Below, piece by piece: positions 4,634 through 49,257 of a stretch of 62,456 nucleotides of DNA. The DNA comes from Ligilactobacillus agilis DSM 20509. GTDB lineage: Bacteria; Bacillota; Bacilli; Lactobacillales; Lactobacillaceae. The stretch lies in NCBI RefSeq assembly GCF_001436215.1, contig NZ_AYYP01000072.1:138700-201155 (forward strand). Direction: 5' to 3'. Below the pieces are notes generated by a model, which saw nothing but the letters and a program-made list of their open reading frames with translations, ran no database searches and was not told where the DNA came from. How positions within the stretch are numbered: position 1 is the first letter of the stretch; the number at the start of each line of letters is the position of its first letter. The position numbers and the translations under genes were made by a program.

Positions 4634-5185
4634 GTGGCACACAAAGGATATCGGTATACGCTTGATGAAAAGCTCCGTTATATTAAGTTGGTCAAAAAGG
4701 GTGCCACTACCATTGCAGTTGAAAAAGAATATGGAGTTGACCACCATAATCTTAACCGGTGGTTAGAGCGCTATGACGAACACGGAGTGGATGGGCTCTT
4801 ACCCCGGCCTGTAAAGAGGTATTCGACTGAGTTTAAAATGTTAGTGGTAAAAAAACATCTGGAGGGCGCTTCGCTAGGCCAACTCCGCCAAGATTATGAT
4901 ATTTCCAATGAAGGGGTAATCCAGCGGTGGGTTAACCTTTATTCGGACGGTAAGCGCTTAAAAAACAAGGGGAATAAGAAGGCCAAGGGCAAGCAATCGC
5001 GTAAGACGACTTTAGCCGAACGCTTAGAGATTGTTAACTGGACGATTGATAACCATTATAACTATAATTTGGCGGTGGAGCACTTTAACGTTTCTTACAC
5101 CCAGGTTTACTCTTGGGTCCGGAAGTTTAGCGACGGGGGCAAGACCGCCTTGGTTGATCGGCGTGGTAAGCGTAAGAATGGCTAG
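4634..5185 (+). CDS. Multi-HTH protein resembling an IS3-type transposase OrfA
   Basis: 183 residues holding three helix-turn-helix segments of the kind found in IS3/IS150 OrfA and related transposase N-termini: residues about 8-50 (YTLDEKLRYIKLVKKGATTI), 60-105 and 123-170 (RLEIVNWTIDNHYNYNLAVE). Very basic linker (KNKGNKKAKGKQSRK). The start is GTG with AGGAGG eight or nine bases upstream, and the gap to the glycosyltransferase is only 11 bp. No OrfB integrase follows; instead a terminator does. No terminal inverted repeats were seen. It may be a stranded OrfA or a protein recruited as DNA-binding regulator of the flagellin-glycosylation genes; the clean operon-like spacing favours the latter slightly. 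Confidence 0.65.
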   Translation: MAHKGYRYTLDEKLRYIKLVKKGATTIAVEKEYGVDHHNLNRWLERYDEHGVDGLLPRPVKRYSTEFKMLVVKKHLEGASLGQLRQDYDISNEGVIQRWVNLYSDGKRLKNKGNKKAKGKQSRKTTLAERLEIVNWTIDNHYNYNLAVEHFNVSYTQVYSWVRKFSDGGKTALVDRRGKRKNG

Positions 5186-5198
5186 CCAAACTAAAAGA

Positions 5199-5235
5199 AA
5201 AAAAGATGTCAGTGTGATAGCTGGCATCTTTTTTA
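5199..5235. terminator. Terminator
   Basis: AAAAAAGATGTCA pairs imperfectly with CTGGCATCTTTTTT; it ends the flagellin-modification operon. Confidence 0.8.
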
Positions 5236-5270
5236 GTTAAGGAAAGAGGCTGGGAGAAGTCTAAAATTTA

Positions 5271-5319
5271 AAAACCGTTAGAAATCACATTACTAAAATG
5301 TTAATTTCTAGCGGCTTTT
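5271..5319. terminator. Bidirectional terminator
   Basis: ACCGTTAGAAAT and ATTTCTAGCGGC form a stem (with G-U pairs) flanked by A and T runs, directly after the stop of the minus-strand penicillin-binding protein. Confidence 0.75.
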
Positions 5320-5322
5320 AAT

Positions 5323-7284
5323 TTATTTAGGGGCGTAATAGGTTTGGTTATTAGCCTTAATGGTCTTGACGCTAGCTGGCTTAGTCCACTGCTTATTAAC
5401 CTGACCTTGGGCAAGGTAGGTCATAATATCTTGGTAGAACTTTTGGGCAATCTTGCTGTCAGCTTCTGAAAGGTAGTGACCTGATTCGTAAGGCTTATCA
5501 TAACCGGTCCACACTGAGATGGAGTAGTTTCTGCTATAACCATTGAACCAGGAATCCATTAAAGCATTATCGGGGAAGCTGGCTGGTTTTAAGTCGCTAG
5601 GGTAAGCGTTAGTCCCGGTTTTACCAGCTTGGTATAAACCATAGACGGCCGCATCATGGCCAGTTCCGCTTGGAGAGCTAATGACCTGTTCGAGCATCTT
5701 GGTTACAATATAAGCAGTAGAAGCTTTCATAACCCGCTTAGGCTTAGTCTTAAAGCTCTTAGTTTGGCCATTAGGTAATTCGATGCTGGTGATGTAGCTT
5801 GGTTGGTAGTAATAACCACCGTTAGCAAAGCAAGCGTAGGCAGCGGCATTTTGGAGGCTAGAAGATGGCAGGCCAATTCCGTTTTGCAATTCGAGCTTGT
5901 GCTTGTAAGTAAAGCCTAACTGCTCAATAAAGCTTTGGGCCCGCTTCATACCTACCGCCTGCAAGGCCCGGATGGCAGGGACGTTTCGGGATTGGACCAG
6001 GGCTTCTTGCATGGTCATCTTCCCGAGGTAAGTACCGTCAAAGTCGTGAAGAACCTTATTGGTGTCTGGGTAGACGAACTTGCTGTCGTCTAGTTCGTGC
6101 TGGCTAGACCAACCTAAGTATTCGATGGCAGGTGCGTAATCTAACAGGGGTTTGGCGGTGGAAGCGTTAGACCTGGTGGCTTGAACGGCCCGGTTCAAGC
6201 CAAAGGTTAGCTCGCCTTGCTTTCTGCCCCCAATCATGGCCACAACCGCCCCGGATTTAGGGTTGATGACGCTAGCCGCTACTTGCATTTGGTCGTTAGG
6301 ATATTTTAGCTGGTCGGAGTTAGCTAGCTGGTAGAGCCGGTGTTGGGCAGCGGTGTCGAGGTTGGTGTAGACCTTTAAAGCCTTTTCGTAAGGATCATAG
6401 CCCTTAGCCCGTAAGTCGGCCACGACCTCTTTGAGGTAGGCATCTGCCCACAGGGCGTGTTTATGACTAGTTTGGTTTCTTTGGCTGTCATAAGCTAATA
6501 AGCCGGCAGTGATTGGCGTTGCCACCGCTTTTTGGTAGGCACTGTTAGAAATCTTGTTAGTTTGTAACATGGCCTTTAAGACCTGATTTCTTCTTTGGGT
6601 CGCTAAGGTTTGGTTAGCGTACGGGTTATAAGAAGAAGGGGCATTAGGAATTCCGGCTAACAGGGCGGTCTGAGCCAGGCTCAAGTCCTTGAGTGGCTTG
6701 CCATAGTAATACTTAGCCGCCGTTTGCATCCCATAAATTCCATTACCCATGAAGACCTTGTTGGCATAGAGGGCGAGGATTTCTTTTTTAGAGTAAATCC
6801 GGTCTAACTCAACTGCTAGCCAAGCTTCTTGAATTTTTCGTTCCAAAGTCTGGTCGGATTTCTTGGTTGAAAAATAGGAAAGCTTGATTAACTGCTGGTC
6901 TAAAGTACTACCACCTTGGAGGCTATTATCGCTTGCTTTAAAGTTAGCTAGGGCCGCGCCCAAAATTCTGATAACATCGAGGCCATGGTGGTTGTAAAAG
7001 CGGCGGTCCTCAATTGAGGTAATCGCCGCACTAGTTTGACTTGGTAGCTGGTTAGGCTTGATGACTTCGCGGTCGTCTACCCCTAAGGAGAGGAGCTTTT
7101 TACCTTGACTATCATAAATGGTAGAAGATGCGGTGCTGGTAACGTAAGCGCTGGTCAGTTTCGGTGCCTTTAAAATATAGTAACCACATAAACTTATCCC
7201 GCAGATAAGCAGTAGTAAGCAGATGACTGCCAGGCTATACCCAACTTTTTTTAAAAGTGAGGTCGGTGTGTGTTCTTTTGTCAT
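5323..7284 (-). CDS. Bifunctional class A penicillin-binding protein (GT51 + transpeptidase)
   Basis: 653-residue membrane-anchored peptidoglycan synthase. One N-terminal transmembrane helix (residues about 16-40, VGYSLAVICLLLLICGISL) anchors it. The GT51 glycosyltransferase shows EDRRFYNHHG with the catalytic Glu, GGSTLDQQLIK, and the KKEILALYANKVFMGNGIYG block. The transpeptidase has SxxK as STAK, SxN as SRN, and KTG as AGKTGTN, so both activities look intact. The frame extends to 7305 with a TTG, but the ATG at 7284 has AAGGGG about nine bases upstream and begins MTKEHT, so it was chosen. It stands alone, convergent with the flagellin cluster and divergent from lspA. Confidence 0.95.
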   Translation of the reverse strand: MTKEHTPTSLLKKVGYSLAVICLLLLICGISLCGYYILKAPKLTSAYVTSTASSTIYDSQGKKLLSLGVDDREVIKPNQLPSQTSAAITSIEDRRFYNHHGLDVIRILGAALANFKASDNSLQGGSTLDQQLIKLSYFSTKKSDQTLERKIQEAWLAVELDRIYSKKEILALYANKVFMGNGIYGMQTAAKYYYGKPLKDLSLAQTALLAGIPNAPSSYNPYANQTLATQRRNQVLKAMLQTNKISNSAYQKAVATPITAGLLAYDSQRNQTSHKHALWADAYLKEVVADLRAKGYDPYEKALKVYTNLDTAAQHRLYQLANSDQLKYPNDQMQVAASVINPKSGAVVAMIGGRKQGELTFGLNRAVQATRSNASTAKPLLDYAPAIEYLGWSSQHELDDSKFVYPDTNKVLHDFDGTYLGKMTMQEALVQSRNVPAIRALQAVGMKRAQSFIEQLGFTYKHKLELQNGIGLPSSSLQNAAAYACFANGGYYYQPSYITSIELPNGQTKSFKTKPKRVMKASTAYIVTKMLEQVISSPSGTGHDAAVYGLYQAGKTGTNAYPSDLKPASFPDNALMDSWFNGYSRNYSISVWTGYDKPYESGHYLSEADSKIAQKFYQDIMTYLAQGQVNKQWTKPASVKTIKANNQTYYAPK

Positions 7285-34416: not shown

Positions 34417-34482
34417 TTAAATTGAGTGATGGGTTCCGATAATTCTACAGTGTATACTAAAGATATACAAGGAGGGATTGAC

Positions 34483-34707
34483 ATGACTATTAAAGTTCGT
34501 AGAGTAGGTAATTCAGTGACGTTAACCATTCCTAAGTCGTTCAACATTTCTCCAGGTGCTAAGTTTAAGGCCGAGCTTAAGGACGATAGTTCAATTGTTT
34601 ATCGTCCGAAACATAAAAATCCCTTTGAAGGGCACTGGTTTAAGGAAGACTTGCATCAAAAAGATGTGCTGAATGATTGTGAGGTACTGGATAGTGAGTG
34701 GAGTTAG
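34483..34707 (+). CDS. mazE: MazE-type antitoxin (AbrB fold)
   Basis: 74 residues. The N-terminal half MTIKVRRVGNSVTLTIPKSF is the SpoVT-AbrB swapped-hairpin DNA-binding domain, and the acidic C-terminus (LNDCEVLDSEWS) would neutralise the toxin. AAGGAGG precedes ATG 34483; the in-frame start at 34426 has no ribosome binding site. It overlaps a MazF gene that is broken by two stops, so it may remain only as a transcriptional regulator or as a guard against related toxins such as the one at 28821. Confidence 0.85.
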   Translation: MTIKVRRVGNSVTLTIPKSFNISPGAKFKAELKDDSSIVYRPKHKNPFEGHWFKEDLHQKDVLNDCEVLDSEWS

Positions 34708-35635: not shown

Positions 35636-35722
35636 AGTCCCTCCCTACAAGTGAGGGCAATCCTGGGTTTTCAATTAGAATAAAAGATTAAACGCTATTC
35701 ACCACATAGGTGGGGGTGTATT
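35636..35722 (+). CRISPR. Degenerate mini-CRISPR 1 (upstream of cas3)
   Basis: Pseudo-repeat 35636-35663 matches the array repeat at 19 of 28 positions and keeps the 3' end GCAATCC; its stem CCCTAC/GTGAGGG pairs with one bulge. Pseudo-repeat 35695-35722 keeps CACCACATAGGTGGGGGT. Between them lies a 31-base pseudo-spacer (35664-35694) starting TGGGTTTTCAATTAG. Spacing equals one array unit (59 versus 61). Such solitary degenerate units inside cas operons are known as cas-regulating guides or antitoxin-like RNAs. The best nearby target I found is weak: eight bases (GGTTTTCA on the minus strand at 35582-35575) just past the possible promoter. Confidence 0.7.
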
Positions 35723-35785: not shown

Positions 35786-38527
35786 ATGAATTTATCTAAT
35801 GCTGCAAAGGTCTTATGGGGTAAGAAAAAAACAGATAATGGTCAACAGCTTTGGTTACCGCTGGTAGCACATCTAATTGATACTAAAAATGTCATTAACT
35901 GGCTTTTTAACCATTGGATTTCCGATGGACAAAGAGAAGTTATTTGCGGAAATTTGTCGGAAGAAAAAGCACAACAATTAGTAAACTTTCTCGGCTATAG
36001 CCATGACCTGGGTAAGGCAACGCCAGCTTTTCAAATAAAGGAATCATATAATCAAGATAAATCGTTAGACAAAGAAGTAGTTGAAAAGCTAATAAGAAAT
36101 GGTTTTGACGGATTAGATTCCCTTGTTTTAGCTAGTGCTAAGGAGTCACCGCATAATAGGGCGGGGGAGGCATTATTAGAAGAGTTCGGTCTAAATAAGA
36201 GTGTTGGGGCAATTATTGGCGGTCACCATGGGAAGCCGGAAAATATAGCGCCGAGAAACCAAATAAGAGATTATTGTTCCAATTACCGGCAAACAACTAA
36301 TGAATCTGAAGCACAGAAACATTGGCAAAAAGTTCAAAAAGAGTTAGTAGACTATGGACTAAGGTTAATAGGGTTTACTGATTTAAAAGAGGTTCCAAAA
36401 GTTAATCAGCAACAAGCAGTTTTATTAACCGGCTTATTGATTATGGCCGATTGGATAGCATCTAGTGAGTATTTAAATGATGATATGAGTAAGCCGATGT
36501 TTCCAACAATTGACATCAACCAGTCGTTTGATGATTTAGACATGAACGCTAGGTATCGGCGAGCAATTAAAACTTGGAAAGCCCATGAAGATACTTGGGA
36601 GCCTGAACGGGTTACAGATATACCAGGTCACTATCAGAAGAGATGGGGATTTTATCCAAGACCTGTTCAAGAAAAAATATCAGAAATTATTGGAGAGGCG
36701 ACTGATCCAGGAATAGTTGTTATCGAGGCGCCGATGGGAATTGGAAAAACAGAGATTGCTTTAACAGCTGCTGAACAATTGGCATTTTATAGCGGTCGAA
36801 CAGGTCTTTATATGGGCTTACCAACACAGGCAACAAGCAACGCTATGTTTACACGTATCAAGAATTGGCTTGAAAGTGTAGGAAATGAAGAAGGTAAAAA
36901 ATTATCCATCAAGTTAATGCATGGCAAAGCTCAGTTTAATAAAGAGTATACAAATCTGATTAAGGCAGAAAACATAGCTTCCGATGGTGATAGTTCTGAA
37001 TCAGTCGTTATAAATTCTTGGTTTTCGGGGAAAAAGTCTGTGTTAGATGAGTTTACAGTTGGCACCGTTGATAACCTCTTATTAATGGGCTTGAAGCAAA
37101 AACACTTGTTTTTAAAACATCTTGGCTTTAGTAATAAAGTTGTTGTAATCGACGAAGTACACGCATATGATGCTTATATGTCTTCGTATTTGGATAAGGT
37201 ATTAGAGTGGTTGGGAGCGTATCACGTTCCAGTTGTGATTCTGTCAGCAACTTTACCTAAAAAGCGGCGCAATGAGCTATTACAGGCATATTCGCTAGGT
37301 AAATTTGGAACAAAGAAATTTGAAGCAGCAAGTAATTGGCAGGAAAATCAAACATACCCATTGATGAGTATGCTTGATAACAAGAATTTGGTGCAAGTCT
37401 CGGATTTTGAAAAACAGGAAGTCAAAGATATTGATGTTTTTAGGATGACTGACGACGAGCAAGAAGTGATTAATTTTGCCGTGTCTAAAATCGAAGATGG
37501 CGGTATAGCAGGGATAATCGTTAATACAGTTAAAAGAGCCCAGGCTTTGGTAGAGCTTGTACCAGATGGTATTCAAACGATGCTTTTGCATTCTGCATTT
37601 TTGGCACCTGATAGATCTGCATTGGAAGATGAGTTGCAAGGAAAAATCGGTAAAAGAGGTAGTCGTCCGGAAAAGCTGATAGTCATAGGGACGCAGGTGT
37701 TAGAGCAATCATTGGACATTGATTTTGATGTGATGTTCACCGATATTGCACCTATGGATTTGATTTTACAAAGGGTTGGTCGTTTACATCGCCATAATAT
37801 TGAGCGGCCTAAAAAGCTTGAAGTTCCACAGCTTTATGTTATGGGAGCGACAGAGTATGGTTCGTACAGCAGTGCCAATGAAGCCATTTACGCAAGATAC
37901 CTTTTATTAAAAACTGACCATTTTCTAAGTGATAAAATCACACTGCCGGATGACATTTCACCGCTTGTTCAAAGTGTGTATGATAAAAATACTGATTATC
38001 AAGATGATGAACTTGCAAAAGCTAGAAGCGTTTTTGATGCTGATAAGGAAAAATCCGAAGAGAAGGCCGGAAAGTTTCAAATTGAGGACCCTAAATCTAG
38101 GAGAATTATCCATGGTTGGCTTGGTATGGCTCAACTTGGTATAGATAAAGATGAAGTAAGAGCTCAAGCAACAGTTCGTGACATTAAAGAAACCATTGAG
38201 GTGATTTTACTTCAGAAAAGAAAAGATGGGTACTATTTGTTAGATGGGCGCAAAGTATCTGACTTGGAAGAAAAAAATAGGGATAAGATTATCGCTCAAC
38301 AAGTGATTAGACTGCCAGTAGTGGTCACCCCAAATATAGGTAAGTCTATTAATTATCTAGAAGGCATTACAATAGATAAGTTTAGAGCTTGGCAGCAAAG
38401 TATTTGGCTAAAAGGTGCACTAGCTTTAGTATTAGATGAACAACAAAAGACAGATTTTAACGGCTGGAATCTTTCTTACTCACCTAAGTTAGGTTTGCGT
38501 TATGAAAAGCAAGATAATGGCTGCTAA
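35786..38527 (+). CDS. cas3: Cas3 helicase-nuclease (type I-E)
   Basis: 913 residues. N-terminal HD nuclease (LPLVAHLIDT, SHDLGKATPAF, GGHHGKPENIAP) fused to a superfamily 2 helicase: Walker A APMGIGKTEIAL, DEVH box VVIDEVHAYDAYM, motif III LSATLPKK, motif VI LQRVGRLHRHN. Recruited by Cascade after target binding to nick and degrade DNA. Frame extends to 35753, but AAGGAGGG lies right before ATGATG at 35783/35786; the second ATG has the better spacing. It is separated from cas8e by 313 bp holding a second mini-CRISPR and promoters, so cas3 and the Cascade genes can be controlled separately. Confidence 0.96.
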   Translation: MNLSNAAKVLWGKKKTDNGQQLWLPLVAHLIDTKNVINWLFNHWISDGQREVICGNLSEEKAQQLVNFLGYSHDLGKATPAFQIKESYNQDKSLDKEVVEKLIRNGFDGLDSLVLASAKESPHNRAGEALLEEFGLNKSVGAIIGGHHGKPENIAPRNQIRDYCSNYRQTTNESEAQKHWQKVQKELVDYGLRLIGFTDLKEVPKVNQQQAVLLTGLLIMADWIASSEYLNDDMSKPMFPTIDINQSFDDLDMNARYRRAIKTWKAHEDTWEPERVTDIPGHYQKRWGFYPRPVQEKISEIIGEATDPGIVVIEAPMGIGKTEIALTAAEQLAFYSGRTGLYMGLPTQATSNAMFTRIKNWLESVGNEEGKKLSIKLMHGKAQFNKEYTNLIKAENIASDGDSSESVVINSWFSGKKSVLDEFTVGTVDNLLLMGLKQKHLFLKHLGFSNKVVVIDEVHAYDAYMSSYLDKVLEWLGAYHVPVVILSATLPKKRRNELLQAYSLGKFGTKKFEAASNWQENQTYPLMSMLDNKNLVQVSDFEKQEVKDIDVFRMTDDEQEVINFAVSKIEDGGIAGIIVNTVKRAQALVELVPDGIQTMLLHSAFLAPDRSALEDELQGKIGKRGSRPEKLIVIGTQVLEQSLDIDFDVMFTDIAPMDLILQRVGRLHRHNIERPKKLEVPQLYVMGATEYGSYSSANEAIYARYLLLKTDHFLSDKITLPDDISPLVQSVYDKNTDYQDDELAKARSVFDADKEKSEEKAGKFQIEDPKSRRIIHGWLGMAQLGIDKDEVRAQATVRDIKETIEVILLQKRKDGYYLLDGRKVSDLEEKNRDKIIAQQVIRLPVVVTPNIGKSINYLEGITIDKFRAWQQSIWLKGALALVLDEQQKTDFNGWNLSYSPKLGLRYEKQDNGC

Positions 38528-38558
38528 TTTTGTTAATTGTGTATGGGGCTGAGAGTGA

Positions 38559-38587
38559 TTGCGTGATTTTATCTGAAGGCTTATATA
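38559..38587 (+). promoter_or_regulatory. Promoter for mini-CRISPR 2
   Basis: TTGCGT (38559-38564), 17-base spacer, TATATA (38582-38587). Transcription would begin around 38594, just before the first pseudo-repeat at 38603. Confidence 0.6.
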
Positions 38588-38602
38588 TGTAGTTATACTA
38601 GC

Positions 38603-38690
38603 CATTTCCCCACACTGGTGGGGGTAATCCAATTTACAGTGGCAATTAAGGTGGAAACAAACATTTTCCCCACATCGGTGGGGGGCAAAA
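38603..38690 (+). CRISPR. Degenerate mini-CRISPR 2 (between cas3 and cas8e)
   Basis: Pseudo-repeat 38603-38630 differs from the array repeat at three positions (2, 4 and 15) and keeps the Cas6e hairpin CCCCAC-ACTG-GTGGGG and handle GTAATCC. Pseudo-repeat 38663-38690 keeps the hairpin CCCCAC-ATCG-GTGGGG but has a decayed 3' end. The 32-base pseudo-spacer is 38631-38662. From its second base it matches 38750-38766 in the cas8e promoter: ATTTA, AGTGG and AATTA blocks are identical, mismatches fall only at guide positions 6 and 12, then 18. A Cas6e-processed RNA from here should load Cascade and bind that promoter without full cleavage-competent pairing. Confidence 0.85.
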
Positions 38691-38695
38691 AATAC

Positions 38696-38724
38696 TTGCG
38701 CGATTTAATTCAAAGGGTTAATAT
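38696..38724 (+). promoter_or_regulatory. Possible upstream promoter of cas8e
   Basis: TTGCGC (38696-38701), 17-base spacer, TAATAT (38719-38724). Confidence 0.5.
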
Positions 38725-38728
38725 ATGT

Positions 38729-38758
38729 TTGTAACCGTTTTTAAATAATATTTATAGT
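38729..38758 (+). promoter_or_regulatory. Main candidate promoter of the Cascade-cas1-cas2 operon
   Basis: TTGTAA (38729-38734), 18-base spacer, TATAGT (38753-38758). The -10 hexamer lies inside the sequence matched by the pseudo-spacer of mini-CRISPR 2. Confidence 0.6.
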
Positions 38759-38781
38759 GGTAATTATATTTAAAAATGAGT
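38747..38781 (+). promoter_or_regulatory. Predicted Cascade autorepression site (PAM + protospacer)
   Basis: AAT at 38747-38749 is placed where a type I-E PAM belongs; the 32-base protospacer 38750-38781 matches the mini-CRISPR 2 guide at 15 of its first 17 bases. Mismatches at guide positions 6, 12 and 18 are the ones flipped out of the duplex in E. coli Cascade structures. Beyond position 18 identity is lost, so binding without Cas3 cleavage is expected. The site covers the -10 element of the cas8e promoter. Confidence 0.75.
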
Positions 38782-38840
38782 CAACACAGACATAGTTAAG
38801 TTCTAACTTTCTCACATACTGAAGAAAGGGGATGAGAGTT

Positions 38841-40532
38841 GTGATTAAACCAGATTTTAACTTGGTCACTGATCCTTGGATAAAAGTCACGGATAGTCAA
38901 AGTAATAAGGAAAAGCTAGTATCTATGGCGGACCTATTTAAAAATGCGCAGAACTATCGAGCTTTAGCTGGCGAAATGCATGCACAAGACCTTGCTATTC
39001 TAAGAGCACCTTTGCTGGCTATTTTAACAACTGTGTTTAGTCGTTTTGACGCAGCGGGTGAAGCTTATGACTGGTTAAACGTTGATGAAGAGACGTGGAC
39101 GGCATCTTTAGCAGATGATGAAGTCGATATCGATGATGTACAAGAAATCTTACTAGAAACCTGGGAAAATATCTATCAAGACGGTAAATTTCCAGATAAA
39201 GTAGTTGAATATCTTGATAAATATAAAGAAGGCTTTAATCTCTTTGGTGAAAATGCTTTTTATCAAGTTTCAAGTGATGTTTATGATCGTATGGTTCCGA
39301 CCAAAAACAAACTATCAACCGGAACGGGTAAGGTGGCTGTTAGACAGATTAACCGATTAATTTCGGAAAGCGGAAATTCACCTTCCATTTTCTCGCCAAA
39401 AACATCCTTAGCCAAGGATGAAATAACGTTGCCCGAATTTGTTCGGTGGCTGATAACCTACCAAAACTTTGCAGAAGTTGGTGGTAACGTGCCTAAGATT
39501 AAAAAGTCCGGTTCCGGGGACAGTGGCTGGCTATACAACATTGATCCAGTGATAGTTAAAGGGGAAAACCTTTTTGAAACGTTGATGTTTAATCTGGTTC
39601 TAAGACCTGAAGATGAGGATGAGATTTTACAGCACCCTTATTGGGAAGCAGATAAAATAACTTACTTTTCTAAGAGAGTTGATAACCTGCCACCAAATAA
39701 TATTGCAGAATTATATACCAATGTGGCTAAGATGATGTATATTGATTGGAAAGATGGTAAGCCAACGATTTACGTTGCTAAACTGACCAAACCAGATACA
39801 ACTAATGCCTTTATTGAGCCGATGACCACCTGGAATTATAACCAAAAAGAAGGTAGCTATTATCCAAGAGTTAAGCAAAAAGAGCGCTTAAGCAGGAGAA
39901 TGTGGCGTAACTTCGGTTTTTATATAAAGAGTTCAAACGACGGTGACCACGAACCTGGAATAGTTAGATGGATAGATAAACTGAAAGAAAACGATATCTT
40001 GCCAGAAGACATGTTGGTAAACTTAGAAACCATTAACTTTGTAAAGGCGGATACCAAAAATCAAGCTCCATACTTTGAAGTGTACGATAATATGAGCATC
40101 AATGTGGGCGTGCTGTTTGATAGAAATCAAGCAACGTTTTGGCCTAAAAAGATTGAAGATACAGTGATAATGACTCAAAAAGTTGGCGATGATTTTTGGA
40201 GATTTGCACGTAATTTAGGTGAATTAAGAGGGTTGAAGGATGCACCCCTTACAGACTTTACCAATAAACTGAGCGCAGAATTTTATGATCAGCTCAATAA
40301 ACCATTCAATAATTGGTTAGCAAGTCTACGTATTGGACAGGAGCCAGATGATAAGATTATGGAGTGGAAGCAAATTCTAAAAAAGGAAGTGGCAAAAGCT
40401 GGCAGTCGTGTCTTGCAATCAGCGACACCTAAGGATATTGTTGGTCGTAGAAATCAAGAAACCAAAGAAGTAACAAACATTTTCGTCCTATATAATCGAA
40501 TGCAATACTTTGTTAGAAAAGACCTTGAATAA
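38841..40532 (+). CDS. cas8e: Cas8e / Cse1 (CasA), Cascade large subunit
   Basis: 563 residues. Begins MIKPDFNLVTDPWIKV, the family-typical Cse1 start. Recognises the PAM and starts R-loop formation in type I-E Cascade, and recruits Cas3. The ATG at 38832 abuts the AAAGGGG ribosome binding site, so GTG 38841, nine bases after it, is the better start. First gene of the Cascade operon, under the promoter predicted to be self-repressed. Confidence 0.95.
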   Translation: MIKPDFNLVTDPWIKVTDSQSNKEKLVSMADLFKNAQNYRALAGEMHAQDLAILRAPLLAILTTVFSRFDAAGEAYDWLNVDEETWTASLADDEVDIDDVQEILLETWENIYQDGKFPDKVVEYLDKYKEGFNLFGENAFYQVSSDVYDRMVPTKNKLSTGTGKVAVRQINRLISESGNSPSIFSPKTSLAKDEITLPEFVRWLITYQNFAEVGGNVPKIKKSGSGDSGWLYNIDPVIVKGENLFETLMFNLVLRPEDEDEILQHPYWEADKITYFSKRVDNLPPNNIAELYTNVAKMMYIDWKDGKPTIYVAKLTKPDTTNAFIEPMTTWNYNQKEGSYYPRVKQKERLSRRMWRNFGFYIKSSNDGDHEPGIVRWIDKLKENDILPEDMLVNLETINFVKADTKNQAPYFEVYDNMSINVGVLFDRNQATFWPKKIEDTVIMTQKVGDDFWRFARNLGELRGLKDAPLTDFTNKLSAEFYDQLNKPFNNWLASLRIGQEPDDKIMEWKQILKKEVAKAGSRVLQSATPKDIVGRRNQETKEVTNIFVLYNRMQYFVRKDLE

Positions 40533-40553: not shown

Positions 40554-41174
40554 ATGGCAAATGAAATCGCTACAACAACAGCTCGAATTATTAACAAATT
40601 GTATGGCAATGGTGAACAAGATAAAGCAGTGTTGGCTAGTTTACGCGCAGCTGATACGATTGACAGCAAGCGTGCACAAGCTGTTTGGCCAGTGATGTTT
40701 TCAGAAATGTCTGAAAAAGATATAAGTAATGACCCAACAGGCAGACCAACTTACGCTGAAACAGCAATTTATGCGGTACTACGGTGCTATGCAATTCATC
40801 AACAAGCGGTGGAAGAGAGTGTCTATGCTCAATCATTTAGTAAAGATAAAACTAAAAATCCTGAGGGAGTAACATTCTTTAATGCATTGGCTGGATTAAG
40901 AACTAACGATGAAACTAGAGTGGCGCTTGATAGAAGAGTACAAGCCCTTTTAGCAAGTAGAAATCTCGCCAACACAGTCAAGTCAATTACTCAATTAACA
41001 CGTATTTTAAAATCAAGTAATCGAGAGTTAAAGGTTGACTATGCCCAGTTAGCACAAGACTTATTTCTCTTTGAGACCAGTTTTGAAATGGCTAACAGGA
41101 TATGTCTAAAGTGGGGCCAACAATATTATTGGCAACCTTCTAAAGAAGCAAGTAACAGTGAAGATAAGAATTAG
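40554..41174 (+). CDS. cse2: Cse2 (CasB), Cascade small subunit
   Basis: 206 residues, mainly helical (VLASLRAADTIDSKRAQAVW; YAVLRCYAIHQQAVEESVYA; LTRILKSSNRELKVDYAQLA). Two copies form the belly of Cascade and stabilise the displaced strand. GGAAGTG precedes the ATG; 21 bp from cas8e and 12 bp from cas7e. Confidence 0.95.
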   Translation: MANEIATTTARIINKLYGNGEQDKAVLASLRAADTIDSKRAQAVWPVMFSEMSEKDISNDPTGRPTYAETAIYAVLRCYAIHQQAVEESVYAQSFSKDKTKNPEGVTFFNALAGLRTNDETRVALDRRVQALLASRNLANTVKSITQLTRILKSSNRELKVDYAQLAQDLFLFETSFEMANRICLKWGQQYYWQPSKEASNSEDKN

Positions 41175-41186
41175 TGAGGTAGAAAA

Positions 41187-42293
41187 ATGATTAATGACAA
41201 TTTATATGTAGAAGCTCATGTTCTCCAACCTGTACCGTCATCAAATCTTAATCGTGATGACAGTGGCTCACCCAAGACAGCTATTTACGGTGGGGTACTT
41301 CGCTCACGTGTTTCATCTCAAAGTTGGAAACGTGCTACTCGGATGGATTTCCGAGTAAACAGTGAAGGCGCTGACTGGCTTGAAAGCCACAGAACCAAGA
41401 GGGTCGCCCATGTTTTGGCTGCCAAGCTATCAGAAAAGGATCCTTCCTTAGATGAAGATATGGCATTATCCAAAGCTGTTGATGTTTTAAAAACAGCAGG
41501 GGTTAAAACTACTAAGGACAAGAAGTCAGGTGAATATTTGACAAGCGCTTTGTTTTTAATCAGTAATGGTGAATTGGAAAAATTAGCAGAATACGCTACT
41601 AATAATGAAAAGGATGATTGGGACAAGAAGGAACTTAAGCAAGTTATTAATAGAAACCAATCATTGGATTTGGCTTTATTTGGTCGGATGATGGCAGATA
41701 ACCCAGAACTTGGTGTAGATGCTTCAGCTCAGGTTGCACACGCTATTTCAACTCATGAAATTGTACCTGAATTTGATTATTATACAGCCCTTGATGATGA
41801 CCAGGCGGAAAATCAATCAGGTTCAGCTATGATTGGAACTTTAGAATACAATTCAGCAACGCTTTATCGCTACGCAAATATTAATGTTAATGAGTTGGCG
41901 CAAAACCTGGGCAGTGAATTAGCTGTTAAAGGTGTTAAACAATTTATCAAGAGTTTTATTACTTCAATGCCTACAGGTAAGCAAAACACATTTGCGAACA
42001 AGACCTTACCTCAATATGTTATGGTAACTGTTAGAAAGGATACACCTGTTAACTTAGTGTCTGCCTTCGAAGAACCGGTTAAGTCACGTAATGGATATGT
42101 AGAACCATCTATCGAGCATTTAGAAAATGAATTCAATGATTCGTTACAATTTGTTGAAGAACCATTGCTGACAGCAATTGTAACTAAGAAGCAAAATAAA
42201 ATTGATAAAAAAGTCGCCAACTTAAACGAACTTCTTGAAAAGGTATCTGAGGTATTGAGAAAAGAGGTTGCGGATGAAAGTAATAACAATTAG
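41187..42293 (+). CDS. cas7e: Cas7e (CasC), Cascade backbone subunit
   Basis: 368 residues; starts YVEAHVLQPVPSSNLNRDDS and has the typical GGVLRSRVSSQSWKRATR. Six copies wrap the crRNA guide, and the thumb of each flips one base in six, the basis of the 6-nt mismatch tolerance used in interpreting the mini-CRISPR match. It overlaps the cas5e start by 20 bp. Confidence 0.96.
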   Translation: MINDNLYVEAHVLQPVPSSNLNRDDSGSPKTAIYGGVLRSRVSSQSWKRATRMDFRVNSEGADWLESHRTKRVAHVLAAKLSEKDPSLDEDMALSKAVDVLKTAGVKTTKDKKSGEYLTSALFLISNGELEKLAEYATNNEKDDWDKKELKQVINRNQSLDLALFGRMMADNPELGVDASAQVAHAISTHEIVPEFDYYTALDDDQAENQSGSAMIGTLEYNSATLYRYANINVNELAQNLGSELAVKGVKQFIKSFITSMPTGKQNTFANKTLPQYVMVTVRKDTPVNLVSAFEEPVKSRNGYVEPSIEHLENEFNDSLQFVEEPLLTAIVTKKQNKIDKKVANLNELLEKVSEVLRKEVADESNNN

Positions 42294-42969
42294 ATTAACC
42301 GCACCATTTCAGTCTTATGGTAATCAAGCAACTTTTAATGTGCGATCGACCAACTTGTTTCCAACTAAAAGTGCGGTTGTTGGGATGGTTGCCGCTGCGC
42401 TTGGTTATCGTAGAGAGGATACCAGAATTTCTGGTTTAAATGACTTGGCTTTTGCGGTAAGAATTGACCAAGTAGGGTCAACAACAACTGATTTTCAAAT
42501 TGCGAAATATGATGCCAAGAAACCTGGAAAACTTACTTACCGAGACAATTTGCAGGATTATGTTTACGTAGTTGCCTTAGGCAGTGAAGAGATAGACTTA
42601 ATTGATGAAATCAATTTTTCATTACATCATCCCAAATTCCAATTGTTTTTAGGTCGTCGCTCTAATCCGCCGGCAGGTGTTCTTAGGACTGAAACTTTTG
42701 AAGCAACCACAACAATAGAGGTTTTAAAAGACAAATTGCCTTGGCAAGCCTCAAAGTGGTATCAGAAGAAATATAGTGCACCAAATTTTGAAGCGGAATT
42801 GTATGCAGATGCTAATCTTTTACCTGGAAATCCGAATTTTATGATGCAGGATATTGCGGAATCTTTTAATCCACGTAATCGACGCTTTAGCTATCGCAGT
42901 GTCGCAAAAGCTAGGGTGACTTTAGTTAATCCGCAATCACATGAGCATGATGCCTGGGAAGCTATGTAG
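42274..42969 (+). CDS. cas5e: Cas5e (CasD), crRNA 5' handle-binding subunit
   Basis: 231 residues. RAMP protein (MKVITIRLTAPFQSYGNQAT; LFPTKSAVVGMVAAALGY; LFLGRRSNPPAG). Caps the 5' handle of the crRNA in Cascade. The ATG at 42274 follows AAGAGG at a fair distance and gives the expected N-terminus. Overlaps cas7e; 12 bp before cas6e. Confidence 0.96.
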   Translation: MKVITIRLTAPFQSYGNQATFNVRSTNLFPTKSAVVGMVAAALGYRREDTRISGLNDLAFAVRIDQVGSTTTDFQIAKYDAKKPGKLTYRDNLQDYVYVVALGSEEIDLIDEINFSLHHPKFQLFLGRRSNPPAGVLRTETFEATTTIEVLKDKLPWQASKWYQKKYSAPNFEAELYADANLLPGNPNFMMQDIAESFNPRNRRFSYRSVAKARVTLVNPQSHEHDAWEAM

Positions 42970-42981
42970 AGGAGTGATAAT

Positions 42982-43617
42982 ATGTATTTATCTAGAGTAG
43001 AGATTGATACTCTTAATCGGCGAAAGATTAAAGATTTATATCATCTAGGTGCGTACCATAATTGGGTTGAAACGAGCTTTCCCAGTGAGATTGAAAATAG
43101 TGAGAGGTTACGGCACTTGTGGCGGATTGACCATTTGCGCGGCAAGGATTACCTGCTTGTCGTAAGTCCAGAAAAGCCAGATTTAGGTATACTAAGTAGG
43201 TATGGTGTTGACGGTACGGCTCAAACCAAAGATTATAGCCCCTTCCTAGAAAAACTAAGAGAGGGGCAGAAATTAAGATTTAAGTTGGTGGTAAATCCTG
43301 TATACCGGATGTTTGTTCCTGAAAAAAATACAGTCGGTAAACTCCGTACAGTAGCACCAAGCAAGCAAAAAGAATGGCTGTCAGAAAAGGCTAAAAAATT
43401 AGGATTTTCGCTTGAGAATAATAGTTTTGATGTTACAGGTCGCGAGTCATTAGCTTTGTACAAGAAAAATAATCGCCGTGTTAATTTAAGCAAGGCAACC
43501 TTTGAAGGTGTACTTACTGTTACAGATTTAGAAGCATTCAAAAAGACGCTTACCCGAGGCATTGGTCGCGAAAAGGCATACGGTATGGGAATGTTAACGG
43601 TAATTCCTTTTGGTTAA
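42982..43617 (+). CDS. cas6e: Cas6e (CasE), crRNA-processing endoribonuclease
   Basis: 211 residues; RAMP fold opening MYLSRVEIDT and closing with the glycine-rich loop LTRGIGREKAYGMGMLTVIP. Cuts the pre-crRNA on the 3' side of the repeat hairpin (stem CCCCAC/GTGGGG here), leaving an 8-nt handle. An N-terminal-region His in RRKIKDLYHLGAYHNWV fits the catalytic His. GAGGAGTG precedes the ATG. Confidence 0.95.
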   Translation: MYLSRVEIDTLNRRKIKDLYHLGAYHNWVETSFPSEIENSERLRHLWRIDHLRGKDYLLVVSPEKPDLGILSRYGVDGTAQTKDYSPFLEKLREGQKLRFKLVVNPVYRMFVPEKNTVGKLRTVAPSKQKEWLSEKAKKLGFSLENNSFDVTGRESLALYKKNNRRVNLSKATFEGVLTVTDLEAFKKTLTRGIGREKAYGMGMLTVIPFG

Positions 43618-43624
43618 AGATTAG

Positions 43625-45486
<1,862 letters not shown>

Positions 45487-45515: not shown

Positions 45516-47682
45516 CTTCTCCCCACACTAGTGGGGGTAATCCTCGTGTATTGCCACTCGATTGAGTTTTCCAAGACTTCTCCCCACACTAGTGGGGGTA
45601 ATCCTCATGGTAATGTCTTTTAATTCATCTATTTCTTCTTCTCCCCACACTAGTGGGGGTAATCCAATCTCAACTAAGGGTGGGGCAGAATTGATTGACT
45701 TCTCCCCACACTAGTGGGGGTAATCCTTATCTTCGTCCCCCGACCTGACGATGGGATGTCTTCTCCCCACACTAGTGGGGGTAATCCTCTGATGTCGCAG
45801 CTCTTGGCTAAGAATCAGACCTTCTCCCCACACTAGTGGGGGTAATCCCAAGAAAACCTATTCTAGGAGGGGTAAACATGACTTCTCCCCACACTAGTGG
45901 GGGTAATCCTACGGCTAGCGCAAAGGTATCACAGCTAAATCACTTCTCCCCACACTAGTGGGGGTAATCCTTATCACAGACGAGACACACCACTCGTTGG
46001 CTAACTTCTCCCCACACTAGTGGGGGTAATCCTCATACTTAGTCCCCCAGTTCGTAAGTGATAACCTTCTCCCCACACTAGTGGGGGTAATCCTTATCGA
46101 AAATAAAAAAGGAGCAAGCCTAGTTGCTTCTCCCCACACTAGTGGGGGTAATCCTCGCGAATACCCAGTTACACTAGAAGGACGTGAACTTCTCCCCACA
46201 CTAGTGGGGGTAATCCTTACTCATTCAGTGTCCATGATGTCATAGACCGCTTCTCCCCACACTAGTGGGGGTAATCCCTACGCCCTCAAAATCAATGCCT
46301 TCACGGAAATGCTTCTCCCCACACTAGTGGGGGTAATCCTAATTTAATTGTTGCCCGGGGTAAATCAAGTTACTTCTCCCCACACTAGTGGGGGTAATCC
46401 CTAATCGTTGCTGTTTACTCGTCAGACCAAGCACTTCTCCCCACACTAGTGGGGGTAATCCTATCCTTCCAAGTCAAGGCCATTACTTCGCCAACTTCTC
46501 CCCACACTAGTGGGGGTAATCCTAAAAGAACGACCATCCGGGAATTGCACTAATTCTTCTCCCCACACTAGTGGGGGTAATCCTTTATAACTGTGGGTGA
46601 CGTCATCGACGGAGTTCTTCTCCCCACACTAGTGGGGGTAATCCTTAAAATAACGCCAATAATAGCGACAACAACAGCTTCTCCCCACACTAGTGGGGGT
46701 AATCCTTGTTTGTCATCAACAGATTTAAAGATGAGATTCTTCTCCCCACACTAGTGGGGGTAATCCTCTTAGCCTTAACCTGGGACGACATTAACTTTGC
46801 TTCTCCCCACACTAGTGGGGGTAATCCCTGGAATCTACACAGGTATGCGGATAGGTGAAACTTCTCCCCACACTAGTGGGGGTAATCCTGAGCGTTGACG
46901 GCGCAAGCATACCTAGTGATGCTTCTCCCCACACTAGTGGGGGTAATCCTTAAAGCTAGTAAACAAGCTAGCAACAGCACAACTTCTCCCCACACTAGTG
47001 GGGGTAATCCTTGGGCGAATATGAAATTATTGAATACCAAGCTCTTCTCCCCACACTAGTGGGGGTAATCCTAAATCTGTAAGTTCAAATGTTGTCGCCG
47101 AAGGCTTCTCCCCACACTAGTGGGGGTAATCCTTATAAAGAACCAATGAATGAGCGTAAGGTTGCCTTCTCCCCACACTAGTGGGGGTAATCCTTTTTAC
47201 AGCTCGTTAATTCTGTAAACGAACTACTTCTCCCCACACTAGTGGGGGTAATCCTGAATGTGTAGCATACCAAATTTTACCCACATTCTTCTCCCCACAC
47301 TAGTGGGGGTAATCCTTACTTTGTGATTAAATCAAGCGTGCCTAATCTCTTCTCCCCACACTAGTGGGGGTAATCCTTACTAGTTCGTTCATTCCTCATC
47401 CCTCCTAAGGCTTCTCCCCACACTAGTGGGGGTAATCCTAATAAGTCAGCGTAAAATTGTGCTCACCTACACTTCTCCCCACACTAGTGGGGGTAATCCT
47501 GCTTTGTCCCCCATAATCAAAACTAGTGCCGACTTCTCCCCACACTAGTGGGGGTAATCCTCCACCTGCCTATATTTTGTGGATTTCCACTGTCTTTTCC
47601 CCACACTAGTGGGGGTAATCCTGTAGTGCTTGAGGAAATCGAGCGTTACGCCAACTTTTCCCCACACTAGTGGGGGTAATCC
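45516..47682 (+). CRISPR. Type I-E CRISPR array, 36 repeats and 35 spacers
   Basis: Repeat of 28 bp: CTTCTCCCCACACTAG followed by TGGGGGTAATCC, with hairpin CCCCAC-ACTA-GTGGGG. Starts are spaced 61 bp (33-nt spacers) except four 62-bp steps (34-nt spacers, before repeats starting 46005, 46189, 46312 and 47411). The last two repeats (47594, 47655) have T for C at position 4, marking the old, trailer end; so the leader end is at left, next to cas2, and transcription is on the plus strand. Thirty of 35 spacers begin with T, four with C, one with A, suggesting that the first base is PAM-derived. Spacer 46828-46860 reads GIYTGMRIGE in one frame, a tyrosine integrase motif. Confidence 0.98.
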
Positions 47683-48856: not shown

Positions 48857-48884
48857 CTTTTCCCCACACTGGTGGGGGTAATCC
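48857..48884 (+). CRISPR. Orphan CRISPR repeat 1
   Basis: 28 bp, differing from the array repeat at position 4 (T, as in the trailer-end repeats) and position 15 (G, as in mini-CRISPR 2). It is followed by T, as are most array repeats, but no second repeat follows at spacer distance. Confidence 0.85.
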
Positions 48885-49229: not shown

Positions 49230-49257
49230 CTTCTCCCCACAGTGGAGGGGGTAATCC
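49230..49257 (+). CRISPR. Orphan CRISPR repeat 2
   Basis: CTTCTCCCCACAGTGG followed by AGGGGGTAATCC; 28 bp, altered in the hairpin loop, followed by T. No partner at spacer distance. Confidence 0.75.

Follow-up and report, generated by a model that had tools for sequence, protein, structure and literature searches.

The window analysed here, a stretch of 62,456 nucleotides from the 2.06 Mb genome of Ligilactobacillus agilis DSM 20509, contains a type I-E locus consisting of cas3, cas8e, cas11, cas7, cas5, cas6e, cas1, cas2 and an array of 28–29-nt repeats, all on the forward strand. cas3 lies at 35792–38527 and ends with a stop at 38527. cas8e lies at 38841–40532, with a GTG that we judge to be the likely start, and is the first gene of the block that would stand under the promoter discussed below. 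The remaining genes, cse2/cas11, cas7, cas5, cas6e, cas1 and a cas2-exonuclease fusion, occupy 40554–45486, and the main CRISPR array occupies 45516–47682. We found 34 full repeat copies in this array, and 36 perfect copies when the repeat core was searched. The cas8e product matched TIGR02547 (Cse1/CasA) at 7e-14 with 51.6 bits, which does not reach the curated cut-off of 70.05, and is 44–52% identical to twelve aligned relatives. In the fused gene at 44593–45486, cas2 is joined to a DnaQ-like 3'-5' exonuclease domain. A short MazF/PemK-like toxin frame (PF02452; 34673–34945) lies some 0.85 kb upstream of cas3 and is overlapped from upstream by a frame without a Pfam match (34426–34707).

A mini-CRISPR lies between cas3 and cas8e

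The gap of about 313 bp between cas3 and cas8e contains two repeat-like sequences and a 32-nt spacer. As the initial annotation had described, these form a degenerate two-repeat unit with one pseudo-spacer at 38603–38690 (+ strand). Pseudo-repeat 1 (38603–38630) agrees with the array repeat at 25/28 positions and pseudo-repeat 2 (38663–38690) at 18/28, and the two are 60 nt apart from start to start. The pseudo-spacer (38631–38662) is 32 nt long including its PAM-derived first base; in E. coli the first spacer base is counted as PAM-derived, and guide position 1 is here 38632. When folded alone, both pseudo-repeats give a Cas6e-type hairpin (−11.6 and −12.2 kcal/mol, with −11.9 kcal/mol for an array repeat copy folded likewise). 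However, when the 88-nt unit is folded whole, pairing between the repeats is predicted instead of separate hairpins (−30.6 kcal/mol). Going by the Cas6e rule of E. coli, the predicted 5' handle is 38624–38631 within pseudo-repeat 1, and a processed RNA would start at 38624 rather than at 38623, the position predicted initially.

A second two-repeat unit is located upstream of cas3 at 35636–35722 (+ strand), with repeats 59 nt apart that agree with the array repeat at 19/28 and 17/28 positions. This unit is more degenerate than the unit at 38603–38690 and its hairpins are weaker. We found no convincing target for its guide in the window, where the best sites reached 12/15 without a PAM and 10/15 with AAT/AAC, and its matches in the genome were no more numerous than those of a reversed-pattern control. 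This unit is probably a relic, perhaps left from an ancestral unit still present at this position in several relatives. Solitary repeats at 48862–48884 and 49235–49257, which differ from the 23-nt repeat core at 1 and 3 positions, adjoin two phage-type HTH regulators and a truncated frame for a phage tail tape-measure protein; no convincing targets for them were found within the window.

The guide matches a site behind AAT upstream of cas8e

We found that the guide, read from 38632 onward, is identical to 38750–38766 (+ strand) at 15/17 positions, with mismatches at positions 6 and 12 and, beyond the matched stretch, at 18, 19, 20, 22 and 23. The three bases in front of the site, 38747–38749, are AAT. 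This reproduces in full the match first noted, which was given as 15/17 from the second spacer base with mismatches at 6, 12 and then 18 and AAT in front. As a chance test, the 150 nt at 38691–38840 were dinucleotide-shuffled 20,000 times and both strands were searched with no PAM demanded. A match of 15/17 was reached in 4/20,000 shuffles, and 15/15 with positions 6 and 12 left out in 1/20,000, the latter restriction having been picked after the match was seen. When the 2.06 Mb genome was scanned for AAY followed by guide positions 1–17, with N at 6 and 12, this site alone matched perfectly; a further 12 listed sites each have 3 mismatches, and one of them is the guide itself.

We searched phage records for protospacers of the main array and found no match, and the PAM was instead inferred from the first bases of the spacers. 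In the window array the 33 counted spacers begin with T (28), C (4) or A (1), in keeping with the T-bias to which the AAT had originally been related. Over the readable arrays of the fetched loci (1408 spacers) the first bases are T in 895, C in 481, A in 23 and G in 9. Most spacers begin with T or C, which points to AAT/AAC as the PAM. When the top site was taken without a PAM filter, it stood behind AAT or AAC in 17/21 units. According to the cited part of a study on Ligilactobacillus salivarius, Cascade of that species represses reporters at 5'-AAT-3' targets, and a GGC target hardly or not (PMC11288051). By analogy, the AAT at the target would be a functional PAM, in agreement with both the array first bases and the L. 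salivarius data.

The target overlaps a predicted cas8e promoter

A putative cas8e promoter, TTGTAA-18-TATAGT (38729–38758, + strand), agrees with the consensus at 9/12 positions, and its −10 lies inside the target. This TATAGT (38753–38758) is the −10 of the sole + strand promoter-like match in 38480–38850. The scan gave 2 matches in all compared with 1.4 expected, and such matches are equally common in shuffled sequence, so that the prediction, taken alone, is weak. Thus the claim that the target covers the −10 of the best cas8e promoter stands in so far as no other + strand candidate was found in 38480–38850, but the motif is no better than chance. Target and promoter-like hexamer overlap in 10 of the 24 units in the set defined below, compared with 4.5 expected. 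We consider the promoter the least certain link of the mechanism proposed here.

Matching guides recur in a minority of relatives

The initial annotation had suggested comparing the locus across relatives. Cas8e was found in 74/397 genomes of the family and 4/26 of the genus, the window's own being included in both counts. We compared 78 Lactobacillaceae type I-E loci, some of whose upstream regions end at contig ends. An upstream cas3 on the same strand was located in 74/78 loci, and in 72 of these 74 the two genes adjoin or overlap (estimated gap −24 to +7); a real gap is seen only in L089 (256) and in the window (314 by this estimate). Since cas3 directly adjoins cas8e in most relatives, repeat-like units are mostly found upstream of cas3. 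A unit between cas3 and cas8e is present in three loci, namely the window, L089 and Lactobacillus hamsteri (L134). In L. hamsteri, at 4760–5840 of the locus, a Fic/DOC-family gene separates cas3 from the regulatory unit. The gene stands between two copies of a stretch to which part of the first repeat of the unit belongs. A plasmid relative of the cas3–cas8e gap was also sought, and the one record found is similar only from within cas8e.

The guides were scored at positions 1–16 minus 6 and 12 (14 positions) against their own upstream region, behind AAT/AAC. Every hairpin-plus-handle in the upstream regions was taken as a candidate, ordinary spacers of upstream arrays included, which gave 142 candidates. 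We found that 15/142 candidates, in fifteen loci, match at least 12/14 positions. None of the cross-locus controls did so (0/2130 guide-to-foreign-region pairs); their maximum was 11, reached 15 times. Ordinary main-array spacers compared with their own upstream regions likewise did not reach 12 (0/1337). In 21 further loci, of which 17 zones were scanned, 5/29 candidates reached at least 13/14, with a control maximum of 12 (2/435). A candidate with at least 11/14 is present in 18/78 loci and 60/78 are without one, which indicates that the device is recurrent but not universal. Thus a sizeable minority of relatives have mini-CRISPR guides that match the upstream region of their own cas genes, behind AAT/AAC and with positions 6 and 12 exempt. 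In three of the relatives (L106, L111 and L037) the target precedes the unit by about 50 nt, and the guide would there repress its own transcription as well.

Positions 6 and 12 are exempt and guide and target diverge together

For position counts we accepted 19 units, 14 from the 78-locus set and 5 from the further loci. L073 (12/14) was dropped for the distance of its site from cas3, 685 nt upstream. Five units with 11 or 12/14 (L037, L078, L106, L111 and L174) are outside the position count but inside the 24-unit set. Outside both sets are L081 (11/14, site 568 nt upstream), L162 (10/14, minus strand), L094 and L096 (10/14, seed only, minus strand) and L054 (11/14, an ordinary array spacer). 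Among the 19 units, positions 1–5 each match in 19/19, positions 7–11 in 17–19 and positions 13–16 in 15–19, while position 6 matches in 8/19 and position 12 in 6/19, against a composition baseline of 0.333. That 6 and 12 lie at background inside the matched stretch is the telling point, because only these two positions were unused for acceptance. Position 18 matches in 10/19 and is unremarkable beside positions 17 (12) and 19 (13). In E. coli Cascade, flipping out occurs at every sixth position, as stated in the cited part of PMC5904413. For Haloarcula CreA, the cited part of PMC8501985 gives changes at 6 or 12 as without effect and each of positions 1–5 and 7–11 as essential.

Co-variation of pseudo-spacer and promoter site, a further comparison suggested at the outset, was followed in seven same-genus pairs from five groups (eleven units), of which the three Lentilactobacillus pairs share members and are not independent. 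At pairing positions within 1–13, 19/20 guide differences are mirrored in the target, and at positions 6 and 12 none are (0/8); this concordance is partly built in, because the sites were accepted for matching. Homologous units have thus diverged, yet guide and target have remained matched, as far as the choice of sites does not itself imply this. For example, guide and target both have G at positions 8 and 10 in the window and both have A there in L. ruminis. The L. ruminis match is weaker (12/15), with the guide mismatched at position 1 and position 7 unmatched. In this species (L122) cas3 is divergent from cas8e, and the unit is closely preceded by its target instead of being followed by it. 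When the gaps of the window and L. ruminis were aligned, the units aligned but the promoters did not, being on opposite sides of the unit. Our data suggest that the guide-target match has been kept in evolution, with the match in L. ruminis being imperfect and 60/78 loci being without a candidate of at least 11/14.

Regulatory spacers of two length classes

The regulatory spacers of the 24 units are either 21–23 nt (10 units) or 32–36 nt long (14 units), with none between; the 34-nt spacer of L089 was taken from a separate repeat placement. The shorter class consists of L041, L046, L049, L063, L068, L072, L103, L127, L134 and L184. Six more units without an accepted target have spacers of 19, 22, 22, 31, 33 and 34 nt. 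The two classes are about 12 nt apart, which corresponds to about two Cas7 steps of 6 nt. In the Haloarcula type I-B system, the cited part of PMC10989794 reports strong repression by 21–24-nt spacers, no priming at 20–24 nt, and no deletions by sequencing with a 24-nt spacer. The two spacer lengths may therefore indicate selected repression-only guides, of a length class that is effective for gene control in Haloarcula (PMC10989794, cited part).

We found no terminator-like site between cas3 and the mini-CRISPR and no clear promoter of the unit's own, and the guide may therefore be cut from the 3' end of the cas3 mRNA. This leads to a tentative idea, which we hold to be possible but rather doubtful, in which the unit has moved behind cas3 and draws its guide from the end of the cas3 mRNA, and in which one Lactobacillaceae length class is sized as if for a smaller, repression-only Cascade. 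If this were true, production of Cas3 would automatically yield an RNA that holds Cascade down, and one spacer class would serve a repression-only Cascade lacking two Cas7 steps.

A model for Cascade autorepression

We propose, with a probability of about 0.86, that 38603–38690 is a creR-type mini-CRISPR whose guide, together with Cascade, represses the cas8e operon. The mini-CRISPR transcript would be cut by Cas6e to a crRNA-like RNA that assembles with Cascade. The complex would recognise AAT at 38747–38749 and pair with 38750–38766 at guide positions 1–5, 7–11 and 13–17. Cascade placed over the predicted −10 would block transcription of cas8e-cas11-cas7-cas5-cas6e-cas1-cas2. The pairing would hold Cascade but would be too short to license Cas3, and the chromosome would thus stay uncut. 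Once crRNAs or anti-CRISPR proteins draw Cascade off, the promoter would be freed and Cascade replenished. According to the cited part of PMC5904413, seed pairing is enough for Cascade binding in the E. coli type I-E system and affinity is maximal at 18 bp or less, while interference and priming need more than 18 bp. Positions 6 and 12 aside, unbroken pairing at the window target ends at position 17, short of this threshold for interference, and the earlier proposal that 17 nt of pairing would permit binding but not cleavage is consistent with these values. That Cascade would repress its own operon had also been predicted before; the matched guides of the relatives and the joint divergence of guide and target support this interpretation.

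We weighed this model against other readings of the same unit. One is a CreTA-like addiction module, in which a small toxin RNA before cas8e is transcribed from the targeted promoter and the mini-CRISPR supplies the antitoxin guide. The anatomy of creA is identical, and according to the cited part of PMC8501985 a small RNA carrying a mini-ORF can serve as CreT. An ATG frame of 7 codons is present between target and cas8e (38776–38799), and a toxin of that size is possible. However, no ribosome-binding site is visible before this frame, and the start of cas8e lies 74 nt past the end of the target. We found no terminator-like site between the two, so transcription should run into cas8e, and we regard such a module as improbable. 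It is less probable still that the unit is a relic of an old array that resembles the promoter by accident or through duplication of a short segment. The degenerate repeats, the two solo repeats downstream and the unit upstream of cas3 without a target would suit a relic. In contrast, only 1 to 4 in 20,000 shuffles equal the match even with the PAM not demanded, and relatives with different sequences repeat the same register, PAM and exemption of 6 and 12; the comparison across relatives thus already contradicts a relic.

Finally, the guide might mark the site for priming, or the RNA of the unit might act on the cas8e mRNA; we give these other functions the smallest share. The cited part of PMC5904413 notes that priming is possible in type I-E systems at sites with an imperfect match, but also that priming in E. 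coli needed more than 18 bp. Action on the message is countered by the orientation of the guide, which has the same sense as the cas8e mRNA and so cannot pair with it. If creR-type autorepression holds, the locus offers a sharply testable case of adaptive immunity metering its own effector, probably in the same genus in which repression by Cascade at the same PAM was demonstrated (L. salivarius). The 24 candidate units would in addition be an evolutionary read-out of the guide positions that Cascade needs in nature.

Relation to known regulatory guides

Self-regulating guides have already been published as CreR, type I-E included, and the window unit appears to be a clear new case. The primary paper on CreR is said to be that of Liu et al. 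2023 in Cell Host & Microbe. Shmakov et al. 2023, in Nucleic Acids Res., reportedly described CRISPR-derived regulatory mini-arrays with two repeat-like sequences and a spacer partly complementary to cas promoters, especially that of cas8; in these features they resemble the window unit, whose spacer matches the predicted cas8e promoter. Among the papers listed by a literature search for CreR together with Lactobacillus and type I-E, none was seen to describe this locus. The initial annotation gave regulatory guides as known in principle and was not aware of a description of this locus; the phenomenon itself had been published as CreR, type I-E included, as stated in the cited part of PMC13131331. 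There CreR (cas-regulating RNA) is named for types I-B, I-E and V-A. In the cited part of PMC12737573, crRNAs compete with CreR and anti-CRISPR proteins release the repression.

CreR is a mini-CRISPR beside cas genes whose guide is partly complementary to a cas promoter, in the cited parts of PMC12737573, PMC13131331 and PMC12948488. The window unit has a degenerate-repeat mini-CRISPR at a cas operon, a PAM-proximal guide match of 15/17 to the cas promoter region, with the promoter itself being a prediction, and complementarity too short for interference by the E. coli threshold (PMC5904413, cited part). From what these sources give, CreR acts by effector-mediated autorepression, generally with no toxin. 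Autorepression is likewise predicted for the window unit, where a 7-codon frame is the sole toxin candidate before cas8e. The window unit would differ in that, placed between cas3 and cas8e, it would leave any cas3 promoter free. In most relatives with a unit the position is upstream of cas3, unlike in the window.

The window unit also shares the degenerate two-repeat anatomy and the PAM with CreA of CreTA (PMC8501985, PMC9458426, cited parts), and, as predicted, the pairing at 1–5 and 7–11 with 6 and 12 irrelevant (PMC8501985, cited part). However, CreA controls a toxin RNA, whereas the window target leads straight into cas8e as far as the gap can be read. The long-form tracrRNA (tracr-L) has a partial guide match through which Cas9 represses its own promoter without cutting. 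Both tracr-L and, by our model, the window unit autorepress through a partial match, but tracr-L belongs to type II, with a single-protein effector.
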